Below, in pieces: positions 921-38,805 of a DNA stretch of 39,201 nt. The DNA comes from Chloroflexota bacterium (GTDB lineage: Bacteria > Chloroflexota > Anaerolineae > UBA4142 > SHND01): positions 1 through 39,201 of the forward strand of contig JAKOPZ010000066.1 of NCBI GenBank assembly GCA_029778615.1, read 5' to 3'. The notes below the pieces were generated by a model. It worked only from the letters and a program-made list of their open reading frames with translations, did not search any database and had not been told where the DNA came from. The translations under genes were made by a program, and so were the position numbers. Within the stretch, counting starts at the first letter, position 1, and every line of letters begins with the position of its first letter.

Positions 921-3326
921 TCAGCTCGGCAATTTAGCAGTTTGCATCACTGCCATCACTTCTCTTCTCTCGCTTCTCGCTTCACGTTGCTCGCGTTCTG
1001 TCACTGCCTTCACAATCTTCTCCGCCGTAATTGGCAATTCCGTAAACCGAACCCCCAGCGCGTTATACAACGCGTTCGCGTAAGCCGCTGCGCACGGATT
1101 CGTTGCCGCTTCGCCGATGCCTTTGGCGCCGAACGGTCCGCTCGGTTCGTAGGTGTCAGAAAAATGCGTGACGATGTTGGCGTTCATCGGCGCTTCGCTG
1201 ATGGCTGGTGTTTTGCCGTCAATCCAAAAACCTTTTGAGGCGAGTTGCCCGGTTTGCGCGTCCCATTGATTCTCTTCGATGAGCGCGTAACCCATCCCTT
1301 TTGACAAGCCGCCTTCGAGTTGTCCGATTGCCATGTCGGGATTGACGAGAGTGCCGCAGTCACTGCCGATGACTGCGCGATTCGTTGTGACGTGTCCCGT
1401 TTCCGTGTCAACGGTCAGGTCAATGAAATAGGTAACGAACGCGGGCGGACAATTCACTTGACGCAAACTTGTCACGGCTGCCATTGTGCCCCACGAATTG
1501 ATTTGCAATTGTTTCGCGAGCGCGCCGAGCGTGATGCGGCGTTCGGGAAAATTCGGACAATAAATCACGCCTTGCATCAATTCATAATCGGGTTCGATGA
1601 CGAGCGAGTCGGCTTGCAGTCCCAAAACGCGCGACGCGTACTCAAAGATTTGACGTTTGACGATTGACGCCGCTTTCAATGCCGCGCCGCCGCCCGCGTA
1701 CACACCGCGCGTCGCGTGCGTGACAACATCGTACACTGTCGTCAATGTATCCGCAGGTGAAATCCCGACCCGTTCGATTGGCACGCCCAATTCTTCCGCG
1801 ACAATTTTTGCAATCGCTTCGAGCGTGCCGCCGCCGTGGTCCATCATCGCGTGAACAACGTCCACCGAACCATCTTCATTCACTTTGACGAACGCGCCCG
1901 AATAATCAATCACTTCGCCCGGTTTCGGCGCACCCGCTCCCGACGTGTGAAACCCGCGCGCCATGCCAATACCGTGACGATAGCGTCCTGTTTGCGTTCC
2001 CGCCTTCGGGCGCGCGCGCCAGCCAATTTTTTGTGCGCCCTCGCGTAAAAGTTGCGGAACGCCATCGCTGCGAATGATGGACTGCACGGAAGGTCCTTGT
2101 CCCCAAAACGTTCCGCCGAGTCCCACATAATTTTTCAATTTGAAATCAATCGGGTCGAGTTCAAGTTCGTGCGCGATTTCGTCCATCAACGATTCCATTG
2201 CAAATGTTGCTTGCGGATTGCCGAACCCTTGCATCGCGCACGACGGCGTTTTGTTTGTGTACACTGCTTTGCCTTCAAAACGCAGATGCGGAAATTTATA
2301 CAGCGACGCGCTCCAACCCGCGAGTACGGAAAGCAACGGATACGCTTGAATGTTGTGTCCGCCAATGTCAGCGAGCGCTTGAATATGTCCCGCCGTAATT
2401 TTTCCGTCGCGCGTGACACCGATTTTCAATTTCAATTTTGTCTGATAACGCACGTGGTCGTACATGTCTTCTTCGCGCGTGGAAACGAGTTTGACGGGTC
2501 GCTGTGCTTTCAACGCGAGCGCAACACAAATCGGAATAATCGAATTCATCTGAATCGAAGAACCGAATGTGCCGCCGATGGCAATGCGTTTGACATTGAC
2601 CTTGTGCAATGGAATTTCAAAAATTTCGCCCAATAGTTGCCGCACGTTGTGAATGGATTGCGTTGTGGGATAGACAGTGATGGAACCATCGGGCGCGGGG
2701 TCGCACACACACGCTTTCGTTTCCATCTGCGCGTGATAAATGCGGCTCGTCAGAAATTCGCGTTCAAAGATAAAATCCGCGTGTTCAAATCCTTCATCAA
2801 CATTTCCAACATTCACTGTACGCGTAACTGCGACATTGTTCTCAATCGGTTTCGTTTCGCCGTTCAACACAATGGATTCGTGAATGGGTTCCGCGTTTTC
2901 ATTTTGCGCATCTTCAGGATTCATGTAATGCGGCAAAATTTCCCATTCGATTTTAATCGCGCGCAATGCTTTTTCCGCGAGTTGTTCTGTTGGCGCGGCG
3001 ACGGCAGCAACTGCTTCGCCCACATGTCGCGCTTTGTCCGCGAGAACGGTGCGGTCGCGATGCAAAAAAGGCGGCGTGCTGACGATGCGTTCGTTGTATT
3101 TGAGATGCGGCACGTCGTCGTACGTCAAGACCACTGCGCCCATCGCTTCGGCTGCGCGTTTGTCAATGGAAACAATGCGCGCGTGCGCGTACGGTGAACG
3201 CAAGACGCGCGCGTGCCACATGCGCGGTAGTGTCACATCGGACGCGTACATTTCGCGTCCCGTCACTTTTGCAATGCCATCTTTGCGGTGAACGTTGGTG
3301 CCGAGCGTGTGGTAGGAATGGTTCAT
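921..3326 (-). CDS. Xanthine dehydrogenase-family molybdenum-binding subunit
   Basis: An 801-residue protein with the full layout of the molybdopterin-binding large subunit of the xanthine oxidase family: an Ald_Xan_dh_C-type N-terminal domain (about 15-125) and the MoCo-binding domains after it. Visible motifs are GGTFGSS (MoCo-binding loop), MQGFGNPQ (365-372) and GAKGIGE, whose E739 is the family's catalytic glutamate. In purine hydroxylases the loop usually reads FRGFG; here Gln366 replaces the Arg, so the substrate may differ. Such subunits normally work with a [2Fe-2S] and a FAD subunit, but neither is encoded nearby. The ATG is 4 bp from the upstream toxin gene's stop, and its GAGGA Shine-Dalgarno lies inside that gene's last codons, implying co-translation. 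Subfamily and substrate are not assignable from sequence alone. Confidence 0.92.
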   Translation of the reverse strand: MNHSYHTLGTNVHRKDGIAKVTGREMYASDVTLPRMWHARVLRSPYAHARIVSIDKRAAEAMGAVVLTYDDVPHLKYNERIVSTPPFLHRDRTVLADKARHVGEAVAAVAAPTEQLAEKALRAIKIEWEILPHYMNPEDAQNENAEPIHESIVLNGETKPIENNVAVTRTVNVGNVDEGFEHADFIFEREFLTSRIYHAQMETKACVCDPAPDGSITVYPTTQSIHNVRQLLGEIFEIPLHKVNVKRIAIGGTFGSSIQMNSIIPICVALALKAQRPVKLVSTREEDMYDHVRYQTKLKLKIGVTRDGKITAGHIQALADIGGHNIQAYPLLSVLAGWSASLYKFPHLRFEGKAVYTNKTPSCAMQGFGNPQATFAMESLMDEIAHELELDPIDFKLKNYVGLGGTFWGQGPSVQSIIRSDGVPQLLREGAQKIGWRARPKAGTQTGRYRHGIGMARGFHTSGAGAPKPGEVIDYSGAFVKVNEDGSVDVVHAMMDHGGGTLEAIAKIVAEELGVPIERVGISPADTLTTVYDVVTHATRGVYAGGGAALKAASIVKRQIFEYASRVLGLQADSLVIEPDYELMQGVIYCPNFPERRITLGALAKQLQINSWGTMAAVTSLRQVNCPPAFVTYFIDLTVDTETGHVTTNRAVIGSDCGTLVNPDMAIGQLEGGLSKGMGYALIEENQWDAQTGQLASKGFWIDGKTPAISEAPMNANIVTHFSDTYEPSGPFGAKGIGEAATNPCAAAYANALYNALGVRFTELPITAEKIVKAVTEREQREARSERREVMAVMQTAKLPS

Positions 3327-11753: not shown

Positions 11754-11825
11754 GGGTATCAGGTATCACGTATCAAGTATCGGGTATTCCATGCGACCCT
11801 ACTACTTGCTACCTGCTACATGCTC
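11754..11825. repeat. Heptad-periodic inverted repeat, copy 1
   Basis: Period-7 units of the type GTATCAG, GTATCAC, GTATCAA run toward the centre, and their degenerate complements (CTACTTG, CTACCTG, CTACATG) follow after a short loop. It fills the spacer between glnQ and livG and touches the start region of livG. Confidence 0.75.
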
Positions 11826-12563
11826 CTAATGCAGAATCTTGCTCAAGAATTGTCTCATGCGTTCGTTATCTGGGTTGTCAAACATATCGCGCGGGGGACC
11901 TTCGGCGACGATTTGTCCTGCCTCCATAAACACCACGCGTGACGCCGCGTTTCGCGCGAATCCCATTTCGTGCGAGACGACGAGCATGGTCATTCCTTCG
12001 TTCGCCAAATCAAGCATGACATCCAGCACTTCGTTAATCATTTCCGGGTCGAGCGCGCTGGTCGGTTCATCAAATAACATTACTTTGGGATTCATCGCGA
12101 GCGCGCGGGCAATGGCAACGCGCTGTTGTTGTCCGCCCGAAAGTTGTGCGGGATAGCTGTTGGCTTTTTCCGGAATCCGGACTTTGCGTAAAAGGTCATG
12201 GGCAATTTCTTGGCTTGCCTTTTTATCGCGTTTGCGGACTTGGGTCTGGGCGAGCGTCAGATTTTCAAGAACCGTCAAGTGCGGAAATAAATTAAACTGC
12301 TGAAAGACCATGCCCACTTCGGCGCGCACTGCGTTGATGTTGCGATGTTTGGAATCAATCACGTTTCCATCCACCACCACGCGTCCGCCGTCAATAGTCT
12401 CCAGTCCGTTGATGGAACGCAAGAGCGTAGATTTGCCGCAACCGCTCGGTCCGATGACGACCAACACTTCGCCTTTGTTCACGTGTGTGGAAACACCGCG
12501 CAGTGCGTGCACGCTGCCAAAATGTTTGTGAACCTCTTCGATGCGTACGATGGCGTTGTTCAT
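11826..12563 (-). CDS. glnQ: Polar amino acid ABC transporter ATPase (GlnQ type)
   Basis: A 245-residue ABC ATPase of the polar-amino-acid (PAAT) family. Walker A is GPSGCGKSTLLR, the signature LSGGQQQRVAIARAL, and Walker B VMLFDEPTSALDPE, followed by VVSHEMGFAR, which is diagnostic for GlnQ/ArtP/HisP-type ATPases. I start at the ATG 12563, which overlaps the permease stop as ATGA and has GGTGGA upstream; an ATG four codons earlier would overlap more. It energises the permease encoded just upstream and sits in the same transcript as LivG/LivF. Confidence 0.94.
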   Translation of the reverse strand: MNNAIVRIEEVHKHFGSVHALRGVSTHVNKGEVLVVIGPSGCGKSTLLRSINGLETIDGGRVVVDGNVIDSKHRNINAVRAEVGMVFQQFNLFPHLTVLENLTLAQTQVRKRDKKASQEIAHDLLRKVRIPEKANSYPAQLSGGQQQRVAIARALAMNPKVMLFDEPTSALDPEMINEVLDVMLDLANEGMTMLVVSHEMGFARNAASRVVFMEAGQIVAEGPPRDMFDNPDNERMRQFLSKILH

Positions 12564-35254: not shown

Positions 35255-35827
35255 ATGGTTCTGCAACTTTTCGAGGGCGAAAAAATTCGCTTTGCCGCGT
35301 TCGACGCGGACAAAGATGCCGAAGTTTTTTCCAAATGGACGCACGACCCCGAATATCTGCGTCTGACTGAATACGAAGCCGCGCGTCCGCTGGCGCCGTT
35401 TCACATCAAAAAGAAATTTGAAGAGATGGAAAAAGAAGCGGGGCGCGATTTCTATTTCTTTGTAATTCGCACGCAAGAGGATGACCGCGCCATCGGTTTC
35501 GTCCACCTGCGTTGGATTGAATGGAATCACGGCAACGCGCACTTTAACATGGGCATCGGTTCGCCCGATGACCGCCGCAAAGGTTTGGGCAGTCAAGCGC
35601 TGCAAATGTTTCTGCGCTACGCATTCGAAGAATTGAATCTGTATCGCCTGACAGGACATACCTTTGAATACAACGACGGCGCGCAAAAATTTCTAGAGAA
35701 ACACGGCTTTCAACTCGAAGTGCGCCGCCGCGAAGCGGTCTATCGGGATGGACGTTATTGGGACGCGCTGTCGTATGGAATTTTGGCGGAGGAGTGGGAG
35801 GCGAAACAGGTATCAGGTAGCAAGTAG
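35255..35827 (+). CDS. GNAT-family acetyltransferase (RimJ/RimL type), array member 1
   Basis: 190 residues. The acetyl-CoA motif is GIGSPDDRRKGLGSQALQMFL, followed by YAFEELNLYRLTGHTFEYNDGAQKFLEKHGF, which fits the RimJ/RimL branch (Acetyltransf_3/4). The acceptor substrate is unknown. AAAGGAG lies 5 nt before the ATG. Its last codons (KQVSGSK) come from a heptad repeat, so the C-terminus may have been reshaped by the repeat. It heads the array of paralogues, and it is the most diverged member of the first four. Confidence 0.9.
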   Translation: MVLQLFEGEKIRFAAFDADKDAEVFSKWTHDPEYLRLTEYEAARPLAPFHIKKKFEEMEKEAGRDFYFFVIRTQEDDRAIGFVHLRWIEWNHGNAHFNMGIGSPDDRRKGLGSQALQMFLRYAFEELNLYRLTGHTFEYNDGAQKFLEKHGFQLEVRRREAVYRDGRYWDALSYGILAEEWEAKQVSGSK

Positions 35828-35873
35828 CAGGTTATTGCCAACCTTACTACGTGCTACCTGATACATGCTATTA
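35807..35873. repeat. Heptad-periodic inverted repeat, copy 2
   Basis: The left arm (GTATCAGGTAGCAAGTAGCA type, period 7) pairs over about 24 bp with the right arm starting AACCTTACTACG. It gives the last codons and the TAG stop of the gene at 35255 and fills the spacer. Confidence 0.8.
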
Positions 35874-35878
35874 GCAAG

Positions 35879-36439
35879 ATGAACAATCTTTTCACAGGCA
35901 AACTTACGCGGCTCGTCGCGGCGGACCCTGAAAAATTGGGCGAACTCGTCGCCAAGTGGTCACGTGATTCCGAATTTTATCAACTGTTCGACAGTGACCC
36001 CACGCTGCCACGCAATGCAAAACGCGCGCAAGAACATTTTCGGGAACGCGCAGAAAAAGACCGCGGGGGCAATTTTCACTTTCTCGTTCAGTCGCTCCAA
36101 GACGAACGCATCATCGGCGAAGGCGGCTTGTTCGACGCGTTTTCACCACATCACAACGCGTGGCTCGCGATTGGAATTGGCGAACGCGAATTGTGGGGCA
36201 AGGGATATGGGACCGACGCGGTGAACATTCTTTTGCGGTTTGCATTTCAAGAATTGAATTTGCATCGCGTGAATCTTGGCACATTTGAATACAACGCCCG
36301 CGCGATTCGCGCGTACGAAAAAATTGGTTTCGTGCATGAAGGCAAATGGCGTCAATCCATGCGACGCGACGGCAAACGCTGGGACAATTATTTTATGGCA
36401 ATTTTGCGCCGCGATTGGGAAGCGAAACAAAATGGATAA
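35879..36439 (+). CDS. GNAT-family acetyltransferase (RimJ/RimL type), array member 2
   Basis: 186 residues starting MNNLFTGKLTRLVAADPEKL. The acetyl-CoA motif is GIGERELWGKGYGTDAVNILL, then FAFQELNLHRVNLGTFEYNARAIRAYEKIGFVHEG. Very close in layout to array members 3 and 4. Substrates could be ribosomal-protein N-termini, an antibiotic or a small amine; the sequence does not tell. No clear ribosome-binding site precedes the ATG at 35879. The next gene overlaps by 8 bp (ATGGATAA). Confidence 0.92.
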   Translation: MNNLFTGKLTRLVAADPEKLGELVAKWSRDSEFYQLFDSDPTLPRNAKRAQEHFRERAEKDRGGNFHFLVQSLQDERIIGEGGLFDAFSPHHNAWLAIGIGERELWGKGYGTDAVNILLRFAFQELNLHRVNLGTFEYNARAIRAYEKIGFVHEGKWRQSMRRDGKRWDNYFMAILRRDWEAKQNG

Positions 36440-36977
36440 TTCATTATTTACCGGCAGACTCGTTCGGCTTGCCGCGCGCGAACCTGAAAACGATGCGGCG
36501 ACCATCGCGGCATGGGACAGGGATACAGAATACAACCGCCTTTTGTCCGTCGAACCCGTGCTGCCGCCGCGTCTAAAAGATGCGCGCGAAATGCTGGAGC
36601 GTCCCATCAAAGACCGCTTTTTTCCTTTTGGCATTCGCACGCTCGCCGATGACAAATTGATTGGCTTTGTAATTTTAATGAATGTGAATCATGTTTACGG
36701 CGACGCGTTTGTGGGAATCGGAATGGGCGACCCCGCGTATCGCGGCAAAGGATACGGCACCGACGCGATGAATCTCGTATTGCGATTCGCGTTTCAAGAA
36801 TTGAATCTGCATCGCGTTTCGCTCGATGCTGTCGCAACGAATACGCGTGCAGTCCGTTCGTATGAAAAATGCGGGTTCGTCCACGAAGGGCAAACGCGCG
36901 GCACCGAATTTCGCAACGGCGTTCGCGACAATTTGGTGTGTATGGGAATTTTGCGGACGGAATGGAAGGACAGGTAG
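36432..36977 (+). CDS. GNAT-family acetyltransferase (RimJ/RimL type), array member 3
   Basis: 181 residues starting MDNSLFTGRLVRLAAREPEN. The longer frame from 36276 overlaps member 2 and is rejected. The motif is GMGDPAYRGKGYGTDAMNLVL followed by FAFQELNLHRVSLDAVATNTRAVRSYEKCGFVHEG. Overlaps member 2 by 8 bp, so the two are probably translated together. The stop TAG lies in a heptad repeat. Confidence 0.92.
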   Translation: MDNSLFTGRLVRLAAREPENDAATIAAWDRDTEYNRLLSVEPVLPPRLKDAREMLERPIKDRFFPFGIRTLADDKLIGFVILMNVNHVYGDAFVGIGMGDPAYRGKGYGTDAMNLVLRFAFQELNLHRVSLDAVATNTRAVRSYEKCGFVHEGQTRGTEFRNGVRDNLVCMGILRTEWKDR

Positions 36978-37058
36978 TAGGTAGCATGTAGCAAGGCAGG
37001 TCCTTTCCTTGCAACCTGCTACCTGATACCTGCTACTTGATACCTACCACTTGCTACC
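36971..37058. repeat. Heptad-periodic inverted repeat, copy 3
   Basis: GGTAGTAGGTAGCATGTAGC is the left arm; the right arm runs from CCTTGCAACCTGC through further CTACTTG-type heptads to 37058. The arms pair over about 24 bp around a short loop, with five mismatches. It fills the spacer between members 3 and 4. Confidence 0.8.
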
Positions 37059-37061
37059 AAC

Positions 37062-37622
37062 ATGAACAACCTTTTCACCGGTCAACTCGTCAAACTCACT
37101 GCCAGCAATCCTGAAACAGACCCGAAAATCATGGCAGAATGGCATCGCGATACGGAATTTTTTCGCCTCGCGTACGGACGCATCGCGCAGCCGTGGAACG
37201 CGAAAACAATTCAGGAGCGCATCGAAAAATACGGTGGCGAACTGAACGAACCGATTTTTGCGATTCGCACGCTCGCGGACGACAAGCTGATTGGACAAAT
37301 GGGGATGTGGATTGACCAACCACACGGCGACGCGTTCACATGGATTCTCATCGGTGAACGCGACTATTGGGGCAAAGGATACGGCACGGACGCGATGCGC
37401 GTGTTCATGCGTTACGCGTTTCAAGAATGGAATCTGCATCGTCTCTCGCTCCGCGTCTTTGGATTCAACAAACGCGCGATTCGTTCGTACGAAAAATGCG
37501 GTTTCCTTCACGAAGGCGTCAATCGGAACGCGTTACAGAAAATGGGACAGCGTTGGGAAGAAGTATGGATGGGGATTACGCGCGGGGATTGGGAAAGACA
37601 GCAGATGGCAGACAGCAGATAG
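37062..37622 (+). CDS. GNAT-family acetyltransferase (RimJ/RimL type), array member 4
   Basis: 186 residues starting MNNLFTGQLVKLTASNPETD, a close paralogue of members 2 and 3. The acetyl-CoA motif is IGERDYWGKGYGTDAMRVF, then YAFQEWNLHRLSLRVFGFNKRAIRSYEKCGFLHEG. Its final residues (RQQMADSR) are coded by a heptad repeat that carries on past the stop. No clear ribosome-binding site; the ATG follows the previous repeat directly. Confidence 0.92.
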   Translation: MNNLFTGQLVKLTASNPETDPKIMAEWHRDTEFFRLAYGRIAQPWNAKTIQERIEKYGGELNEPIFAIRTLADDKLIGQMGMWIDQPHGDAFTWILIGERDYWGKGYGTDAMRVFMRYAFQEWNLHRLSLRVFGFNKRAIRSYEKCGFLHEGVNRNALQKMGQRWEEVWMGITRGDWERQQMADSR

Positions 37623-37710
37623 CAGAAGGTGAAACGTCAAACGTCAAACGTCAAATCGCCAATCTCTAATCTCCAGGCTCCAGTCTCTAATCTCTAGTCT
37701 CCAGTCTCCA
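37596..37710. repeat. Heptad-periodic direct repeat array, copy 4
   Basis: Seventeen or so units in strict 7-bp phase. They drift from AGACAGC/AGATGGC through CAAACGT (three times) to CTAATCT, CCAGTCT, CTAGTCT. Unlike the other copies it is direct only, with no central loop. It starts inside the coding sequence of array member 4 and ends 16 bp before the next ATG. Confidence 0.85.
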
Positions 37711-37726
37711 CTAAAGAGGAACACAA

Positions 37727-38746
37727 ATGCTTGCCACTCTCGAGCAAAAAACATTCGCGCCCGAACTGGGCATCGAAGGGTTAACCTTAAGAAATTGGCG
37801 CGACGATTCGGATTACGCCAAGATGCTGCCCATCTTGTACGCAGACCGGCTGTCGCAAGGTTTGGAAGAAAGCATCACATTGCCGGATTACAAAACGTCG
37901 TTCGAAACCATGCCGGGCATGAACGTTCGCACAGGCATTTTTTTGCTGGAACGATATGGCGAACCGATTGCTTACAAAACAATCCGCGCAGTGCCCGAAG
38001 CTGATGGTTCATATCGTTACGCCCATTATGGTTGCGTGCTGCCCGCATGGAAAGGGCGCGGCATCGGGCGCGCAATGATTCGTCACAGCGAAGCGATGCT
38101 GCGCGAATTGGCGGAAACGCATCCTGCCGACGCGCCAAAATTTTTCCAGACGTTTTTGCAAACCACGCAAACCGCGCTCATCCAATTGCTCGAGCAAGAA
38201 GGATACGCGCCGGTGCGCTATTTTTTTGAAATGCTGCGCGAAACGTTGGACGATATTCCCGAGAATGACCTGCCGTCGGGCATCAAGGCGCGACCCGTTG
38301 ACCCGCAACACTATCGAAAAATTTGGGATGCGATGCTGGAAGCGTTCAAAGAACATTGGGGCGAAGAGGAGCACACCGACGCGGATTTTGAAAATTGGCT
38401 CAAGCGTCCGCACTTTGACCCGACCTTGTGGCATATCGCGTGGGATGGGGACCGCGTTGTTGCCGTCGTCATCAATCAAATTAATGAGACCGACAACGCG
38501 CACTACAATCGCCAACGCGGTTTCACCGAAGACATTGCAACCTTAAAGGAATATCGCGGACGCGGCATCGCGCAAGCATTGATTGTGCGCGGCTTGCGAC
38601 AATTCCGTGAACGCGGCATGAACGCGGCGGGGCTTGATGTGGACGGTGAAAACGCGACGGGCGCGCTGCGCTTGTACGAAAAACTCGGCTATCGCCCGAT
38701 TCGCACTGTGATGGCGTATCGCAAAGGATTCGAGATTAGAGACTAG
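37727..38746 (+). CDS. Double-domain GNAT acetyltransferase
   Basis: 339 residues made of two GNAT domains, about 17-170 and 185-339. The first has the acetyl-CoA motif YGCVLPAWKGRGIGRAMIRH; the second has TLKEYRGRGIAQALIVRGL and then ENATGALRLYEKLGYRPI. This is the two-domain layout of mycothiol-synthase-like and related GNATs; the acceptor is unknown. AGAGGA lies 7 nt before the ATG. The last codons and the TAG stop lie in another heptad repeat. Confidence 0.92.
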   Translation: MLATLEQKTFAPELGIEGLTLRNWRDDSDYAKMLPILYADRLSQGLEESITLPDYKTSFETMPGMNVRTGIFLLERYGEPIAYKTIRAVPEADGSYRYAHYGCVLPAWKGRGIGRAMIRHSEAMLRELAETHPADAPKFFQTFLQTTQTALIQLLEQEGYAPVRYFFEMLRETLDDIPENDLPSGIKARPVDPQHYRKIWDAMLEAFKEHWGEEEHTDADFENWLKRPHFDPTLWHIAWDGDRVVAVVINQINETDNAHYNRQRGFTEDIATLKEYRGRGIAQALIVRGLRQFRERGMNAAGLDVDGENATGALRLYEKLGYRPIRTVMAYRKGFEIRD

Positions 38747-38805
38747 AGACTGGAGACTGTTCCGAATAAAAGTAAGAATCTCCAACCTCTAATCTCAAGT
38801 CTCCA
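38732..38805. repeat. Heptad-periodic inverted repeat, copy 5
   Basis: The left arm GATTAGAGACTAGAGACTGG (period 7) is followed by a short loop and a degenerate complementary right arm ending AATCTCAAGTCTCCA. It includes the stop of the double-domain GNAT gene. Confidence 0.8.

Follow-up and report, generated by a model that had tools for sequence, protein, structure and literature searches.

Degenerate 7-bp repeat modules in gene gaps of a Chloroflexota bacterium as probable open-reading-frame-less forms of S23p hairpin elements

Heptameric repeats and the intervening sequences (IVSs) of bacterial rRNA are known separately. In a 23S rRNA IVS that has the gene of the protein S23p, such as that of Coxiella burnetii, this gene occupies the loop of a hairpin; these insertions are sporadic, lie inside a transcription unit, and are cut by RNase III with no ligation (PMC4990558). 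The Coxiella heptads are GACAGAT units directly 5' of the S23p open reading frame (ORF), present in two to three copies depending on the strain (PMC4990558). Described heptameric repeats include the STRR of Calothrix (cited in PMC4692102), the GGGAATC arrays of Xanthomonas and GGGGAYT arrays of Nostoc (PMC4692102), and the TAACTGA arrays of Beggiatoaceae (PMC4679880). The passages on heptamers in PMC4692102 and PMC4679880 treat them as simple repeats, G-quadruplex motifs or regulator sites, and draw no link to S23p. We found no paper joining the two subjects in a search that left most subscription papers and preprints outside. Environmental bacteria commonly carry S23p genes, for which no function has been known since the description of rRNA IVSs, and bacterial heptamers have no settled origin. 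Here we analyse a window of 39,201 nucleotides from a Chloroflexota bacterium of the class Anaerolineae (GCA_029778615.1, contig JAKOPZ010000066.1, positions 1 to 39,201; contig C135 of G000, as we call this 6.0-Mb draft genome). It contains five modules of degenerate 7-bp units which, we argue, are probably ORF-less S23p hairpin elements, members of the class that includes the 23S rRNA IVSs. With anatomy, word and lineage linking the two, the function of S23p and the origin of heptamers become testable in a single experiment.

The modules resemble the arrays of Calothrix, Xanthomonas, Nostoc and Beggiatoaceae in their 7-bp units, intergenic position, many loci per genome and spotty taxonomy, and inverted pairs have been noted in Xanthomonas. 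All five modules listed by the initial annotation are present. Four are associated with a run of five co-directional GNAT acetyltransferase genes on the forward strand (35255..38746; ORFs, Pfam PF13302 and PF00583), located at 35255-35827, 35879-36439, 36432-36977, 37062-37622 and 37727-38746, with modules in the gaps. The inverted module 35807..35867 consists of arm 1 CAGGTATCAGGTAGCAAGTAGCAGG (35807-35832), a short loop and arm 2 CTTACTACGTGCTACCTGATAC. Its fold has a minimum free energy of -32.4 and a z score of -6.7 (z scores are against mononucleotide shuffles), and it supplies the last codons and the TAG of the first GNAT gene. The inverted module 36971..37061 (arm 1 AGGTAGTAGGTAGCATGTAGCA, arm 2 TGCAACCTGCTACCTGATACCTGCTACTTGATACCTACCACTTGCTACC; z of -5.9) provides the TAG of gene 36432-36977, and the inverted module 38727..38805 (arm 1 GAGATTAGAGACTAGAGACTGGAGACTG at 38727-38759, arm 2 ATCTCCAACCTCTAATCTCAAGTCTCC; z of -5.7) that of gene 37727-38746. 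The module at 37596..37710 keeps a period of 7 throughout while its word drifts from AGACAGC (37596-37626) to AAACGTC (37632-37655) and CTAATCT/CCAGTCT (37654-37710); it has a fold z of -1.5 and provides the TAG of gene 37062-37622. The stop is therefore module-derived in four of the five GNAT genes (ends 35827, 36977, 37622 and 38746), which bears out an earlier remark on gene ends. The fifth module (11755..11828; Tandem Repeats Finder, sequence and fold) lies between two ABC-transporter ATPase genes (Pfam), with arm 1 GGTATCA at 11755-11787 and arm 2 CTACTTGCTACCTGCTAC at 11798-11828. Its inversion is weak (z of -2.0), and with it the count of four inverted modules with a short loop, given at the outset, is right. 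Inverted termini forming a stem, a hallmark of S23p elements and IVSs, are found at modules 35807, 36971 and 38727, the three with stable stems (z about -6). The window modules hold no PF05635 ORF between their arms, and they lie between protein genes and not in a 23S rRNA helix.

Such modules are dispersed through the genome. We scanned 439 kb, made up of the window and 400 kb of five large contigs, and the genome rates given here rest on this sample and on pattern counts. In a lag-identity scan with a segment score of at least 12, segments numbered 41, 26 and 12 at lags 7, 14 and 21; lags other than multiples of 7 gave 0-10 (10 at lag 18 and 7 at lag 12), and a first-order Markov shuffle left none at lag 7. 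Lags 14, 21 and 28 are raised because the period is 7. The pattern GAGACTGGAGACTGGAG (at most one mismatch) has 388 matches in this genome and its reversed control has none, while GTAGCAGGTAGCAG (at most two mismatches) has 414 matches versus 141 for the control, so that neither a lack of further copies nor a lack of phase conservation, the two outcomes that would have refuted the initial annotation, was seen. A looser scan of the sample yielded 55 modules and at least ten word families (GGTAKCA, GAGAYTR, AAACGTC, GTGCATT, AAAAGTA, ACAGATA, AATCATA, GTTCTGT, GATGAAT and GACTGTT), where two had been described; the change of word with phase kept, noted at 37596, is seen in other words of the genome too. 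Arms are inverted in 21 of 53 modules. Like STRR-type repeats, these are tandem 7-bp units at many loci, but their copies are not the near-identical ones of local slippage alone: they are degenerate, drifting, inverted and of one polarity, with words common to several loci.

The purF-purD gap of two relatives, G004 and G005, holds an array, a gene of family PF05635 and another array, and for this reason we examined a link to S23p, the linked protein that the initial annotation had proposed to seek. PF05635 is the family of S23p, also named 23S rRNA intervening-sequence protein (23S_rRNA_IVP) or "four helix bundle protein". In the class of G000, 35 of 40 genomes have it, with up to 25 copies, and all 14 well-known control genomes lack it. 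Among the genes with readable flanks, a 7- or 8-bp array occurs within 300 bp of 71 of the 81 PF05635 genes of the class, and on both sides of 40; for random ORFs of 100-250 aa the corresponding numbers are 19 and 3 of 172. We then matched each upstream flank locally, above a threshold score, to the reverse-complemented downstream one. Same-word inverted arms were found at 56 of the 81 genes, as opposed to 6 of 399 swapped pairs. Examples of such arms around S23p are GTGCGATA and TATCGCAC (L226), ATGAAGG and TTCATCC (L230), and ATTGGGTG and CACCCAAT (L254). At PF05635 loci of other phyla, in genomes selected for having heptads, 20 of 30 have an array and 24 of 30 have matching arms (4 of 148 with swapped partners), and among 48 genomes with the window's word, belonging to many phyla, 38 have the family. 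A set of plasmids not chosen for heptads, whose S23p genes were found by protein similarity, gave a 7- or 8-bp array at 12 of 12 genes and an inverted stem score of at least 24 at 8 of 12. Their hosts are ten Cyanobacteriota (mostly Nostoc, Calothrix, Anabaena and relatives), Azospirillum and Gemmatirosa, and the genes sit between nrdB and nrdA, between cas6 and cas4, or among plasmid genes. Two of the lineages with described heptamers, Nostoc and Calothrix, thus bear heptad-flanked S23p genes on plasmids, and Xanthomonas campestris has the S23p protein XCC0516 (PDB 2gsc). The initial annotation, which overlooked many word families, hundreds of modules and this parent element, is partly supported in its interpretation.

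The specificity of the flanking arrays bears on a different kind of maker. Repetitive extragenic palindromes (REP) go with dedicated transposases (RAYTs), and a Y1 transposase could have made the palindromic modules in a similar way. Genes for Y1_Tnp are indeed present in 17 of 20 genomes, but just 1 of the 26 tested in relatives has a 7- or 8-bp flank array, and none has one on both sides. This control largely refutes a Y1 transposase as the maker, and the association that defines REP/RAYT systems is lacking, so that we regard this origin as extremely unlikely.

The repeated word and its length follow the lineage of the protein. We compared 94 S23p elements, counting words as shared with up to one mismatch. 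When the proteins of two different genera are at least 70% identical, their elements share the period in 91% of pairs and the word in 63%; for pairs under 25% identity these values drop to 51% and 5%. In pairs from the same genome with less than 45% identity the word is common in just 2-6%. A Mantel test on different-genus pairs gave 0 of 2000 permutations, and elements group by period, 7 or 8, on the protein tree (period 8 takes 9 changes, the shuffled mean being 26). Part of this agreement is vertical descent of orthologous loci. Yet 67 of 113 close pairs lack outer-flank homology (a few flanks being missing or short), and 39 of these 67 have a common word. Word and period therefore go with the protein lineage rather than with the genome of the host, in part at sites without homology. 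The elements G003:C366 and G000:C192 illustrate this at a single orthologous site: the neighbouring sequence is the same on both sides and the S23p proteins are 57% identical, but the words are GGTAGCA (7 bp) in the former and GGTAGACA/GGTAAACA-like units (8 bp) in the latter. Both arms have changed in each species, word and period together (L222 and L251).

These data also bear on the possibility that heptads arise by themselves, through polymerase slippage favouring 7 bp, and that the S23p gene enters the loop of a module already in place. Many bacteria have an excess of heptamers, which have been related to a polymerase footprint (PMC4692102), ORF-less modules are more numerous than S23p genes, and ten heptad-bearing genomes have no PF05635. 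A landing site would however need a lineage-specific target word, as word and length track the S23p lineage across genera and at non-homologous sites, and a period of 8 tracks S23p too. Slippage alone yields neither inverted pairs nor a single polarity. We consider this scenario rather unlikely. Simple slippage as sole cause was rejected, giving no inversion, polarity, S23p link or link between word and lineage. The earlier remark that the modules are unlike ordinary slippage arrays stands for their dispersal, inversion and link with a protein, whereas within an array slippage probably still changes the copy number.

Comparison with relatives shows what persists at orthologous sites. In G004, a near relative (GNAT protein 91% identical), the orthologous GNAT gaps carry the same words as the window: those of module 35807 recur at L164:7543-7598, and AAACGTC followed by CAATCTCC, as in module 37596, at L164:8769-8841. 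In distant congeners place and period are kept but the word is not. The PurQ loop near residue 107 has CAGTCTC units in G004, AAATCGA units in G003 and CAGTCATC-type units in G001, where 63 extra bases make nine units; G005 has no array there, and G003, G004 and G005 are of equal length. The purF-purD gap has arrays alone, with different words, in G003 (43 bp) and G001 (141 bp). Such changes of word with conserved period are what the initial annotation had suggested looking for between strains. In the purine operon of G004, which runs purL, Q, C, E, K, F, D, M, N, another gene and then guaB, most gaps contain modules, nearly all of them GAGAYTR. Several species also have heptad arrays within purL, purQ and purE, similarly placed, differing in word and keeping the frame (L167:12921-16175, L215). 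The GNAT run is longer by one gene here than in G004 (L164:7543-9960 versus 35255-38746 in the window). The gene at 37062-37622 seems to have no counterpart in G004 and modules lie at the joints; recombination through modules or through GNAT paralogues is a possible source of the extra gene.

Placement with respect to genes is far from random. According to simple ORF calls, co-directional neighbours flank 35 of the 37 intergenic modules in the genome sample (one of the others is convergent and one divergent), whereas only about 61% of intergenic bases are co-directional (binomial P about 4e-6). Modules fill their gaps, starting a median of 6 bp past the stop and ending 4 bp ahead of the next start. 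One could thus see them as host-made simple repeats that are harmless in operon gaps, or as intercistronic hairpins and all-frame stops, with the S23p link secondary. They fill operon gaps almost exactly and provide stops, three of the five window modules have stable RNA hairpins, and copy number and words vary. However, arm-level covariation is absent, the association with S23p is far above that of other genes of the same genomes and recurs on plasmids of other phyla, and slippage leaves the single word family of neighbouring purine-operon gaps unexplained. This makes a host origin distinctly improbable.

Several observations tie the ORF-less modules to S23p elements. The window's words surround S23p genes elsewhere: GTAGCAG at G003:C366 (L251), L274 and L303, including Clostridia and Spirochaetaceae genomes; GTATCAG at L281, L288 and L296, in genomes of Flavihumibacter, Chitinophagales and Gemmatimonadetes; and GAGACTG at the S23p gene in the purF-purD gap of the G004 purine operon. 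The relatives at L167, L251, L288 and L296 thus have these words with a PF05635 ORF between the arms. ORF-less arrays can also share their word with an S23p element of the same genome. The 8-bp array CCCAATCA in the purQ-purC gap of G004 does so, and the doubled 8-bp word AGTGCGATA has 271 matches in G001, where two S23p elements bear it, against 0-89 in 19 other genomes searched and 0-1 for controls. Finally, the two forms have a common polarity. The purine-rich arm comes first in 21 of 21 inverted modules of G000, in 9 of 10 in G004 and in 35 of 44 from other phyla, and it lies 5' of the ORF in 88 of 101 S23p elements. Since a palindromic module shows one polarity whichever strand is read, gene direction cannot be the cause.

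Other results weigh against the modules being S23p elements. The window has no PF05635-like frame, and the other 400 kb sampled have no S23p gene. Those S23p genes of G000 that were read bear other words (AGATTACAGAATACAG and 8-bp words), and its commonest words, GAGACTG and GTAKCAG, were not at any of them; the S23p element of G005 has GAGACTG words, yet these have just 7 matches genome-wide. Polarity is mixed in G001 (4 of 10), and 14 of the 53 modules sit within long ORFs. Pairing between the two arms of a module is no better than between arms exchanged among modules of one family, so that selection on the exact hairpin is not shown and fine-scale selection on its arms was rejected. Random ORFs of these genomes have a raised array background (11%), and a PF05635 match is missing from 10 of the 48 heptad-bearing genomes, several of which (for example, Actinoallomurus, Aeromonas and Paraburkholderia) have a perfect array, as plain slippage would give. 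The 39 distinct PF05635 loci scanned for rRNA had none, and no rRNA-borne IVS is among them. No transposition event, target-site duplication or S23p activity was observed.

If the modules are S23p elements, they may spread inside transcription units, in which a hairpin, whether it holds the ORF or not, could be tolerated or excised. ORF-less copies would multiply like non-autonomous elements, and slippage would afterwards change their copy number. S23p might recognise the repeat hairpin of its own lineage and help copy or move it, the copying enzyme acting in trans. Such recognition is a natural guess, no more, since Avd, which assists retrohoming by diversity-generating retroelements (DGRs) as their accessory protein, is a homologue of S23p (PMC10053308). 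Both are four-helix proteins (PF22296/PF05635), and an Avd of this genome matches PF05635 at 9e-7. In contrast with DGRs, no template repeat, variable repeat or reverse transcriptase (RT) was seen to belong to the heptad elements, and the window modules have no DGR cassette of RT, Avd, template repeat and variable repeat. RT genes occur in six of six genomes of the genus, some near heptads; nothing can be concluded from this because at least one of them belongs to an ordinary DGR. A complete DGR lies at G000:C152:1500-5706 (L347), with a protein of FGE-sulfatase domain carrying the variable repeat, a bAvd gene, the template repeat and the RT; its 125-nt repeats are 84% identical, and heptad modules of words GTAGCAG and GAGACT are close by. 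G003:C249 (L349) has a similar cassette with 124-nt repeats that are 91% identical. Near an RT gene of G001 (C98:32790-32930, L354) there is a 16-bp tandem array, CGCGTTGGGGTAACCA, unrelated to the 7- and 8-bp words.

We put forward more tentatively, as an idea with somewhat less than even chances, that S23p is the trans-acting factor of a large and so far unrecognised class of RNA-hairpin mobile elements, each protein lineage recognising, and its machinery writing, one word of one length (7 or 8 bp). Both 23S rRNA IVSs and the majority of dispersed degenerate heptad arrays in bacteria would then be explained. The modules differ from 23S rRNA IVSs in being mostly in gaps between protein genes, mostly ORF-less and present in hundreds per genome, with words that follow the protein lineage and units that can be of 8 bp. 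They resemble REP and bacterial interspersed mosaic elements with their RAYTs, and miniature inverted-repeat transposable elements, as short dispersed palindromic units with autonomous and non-autonomous forms, but they end in tandem micro-repeats whose words drift, S23p is no known transposase, and no target-site duplication was seen. The tRNA-Leu intron of Nostoc has degenerate heptanucleotide repeats forming a hairpin, and similarly consists there of two complementary classes of degenerate heptads and a loop; it differs as a single intron stem that is attributed to slipped-strand mispairing. Paired tandem hepta- and octanucleotide sites of Geobacter metallireducens are alike in their 7- or 8-bp units, multiple copies and, for some, drawing as strand-switching loops, but they are annotated as predicted binding sites of global regulators (PMC2700814).

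The link between S23p and these repeats may also explain why S23p genes are found in operons (purine, nrd, cas and plasmid genes) and are picked up by guilt by association. The 23S rRNA IVP is listed in a figure of CRISPR-linked proteins (PMC10910872), and the heptad-flanked S23p gene in two cas6-cas4 gaps may account for that association. These two CRISPR operons are on plasmids of Anabaena sp. 90 (L336) and Pseudanabaena (L345).

The window has one further short array, three copies of TTTGACG (AAACGTC word family) within an ORF at 1649..1669 (Tandem Repeats Finder, ORF list). An integron was considered for the GNAT run; the attC core is absent from the heptad words, and no integrase search was made. 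Viral contigs had one S23p relative only. In Laterigemmans (L297), eleven tRNA genes lie within 2.6 kb on one strand and adjoin a PF05635 gene.

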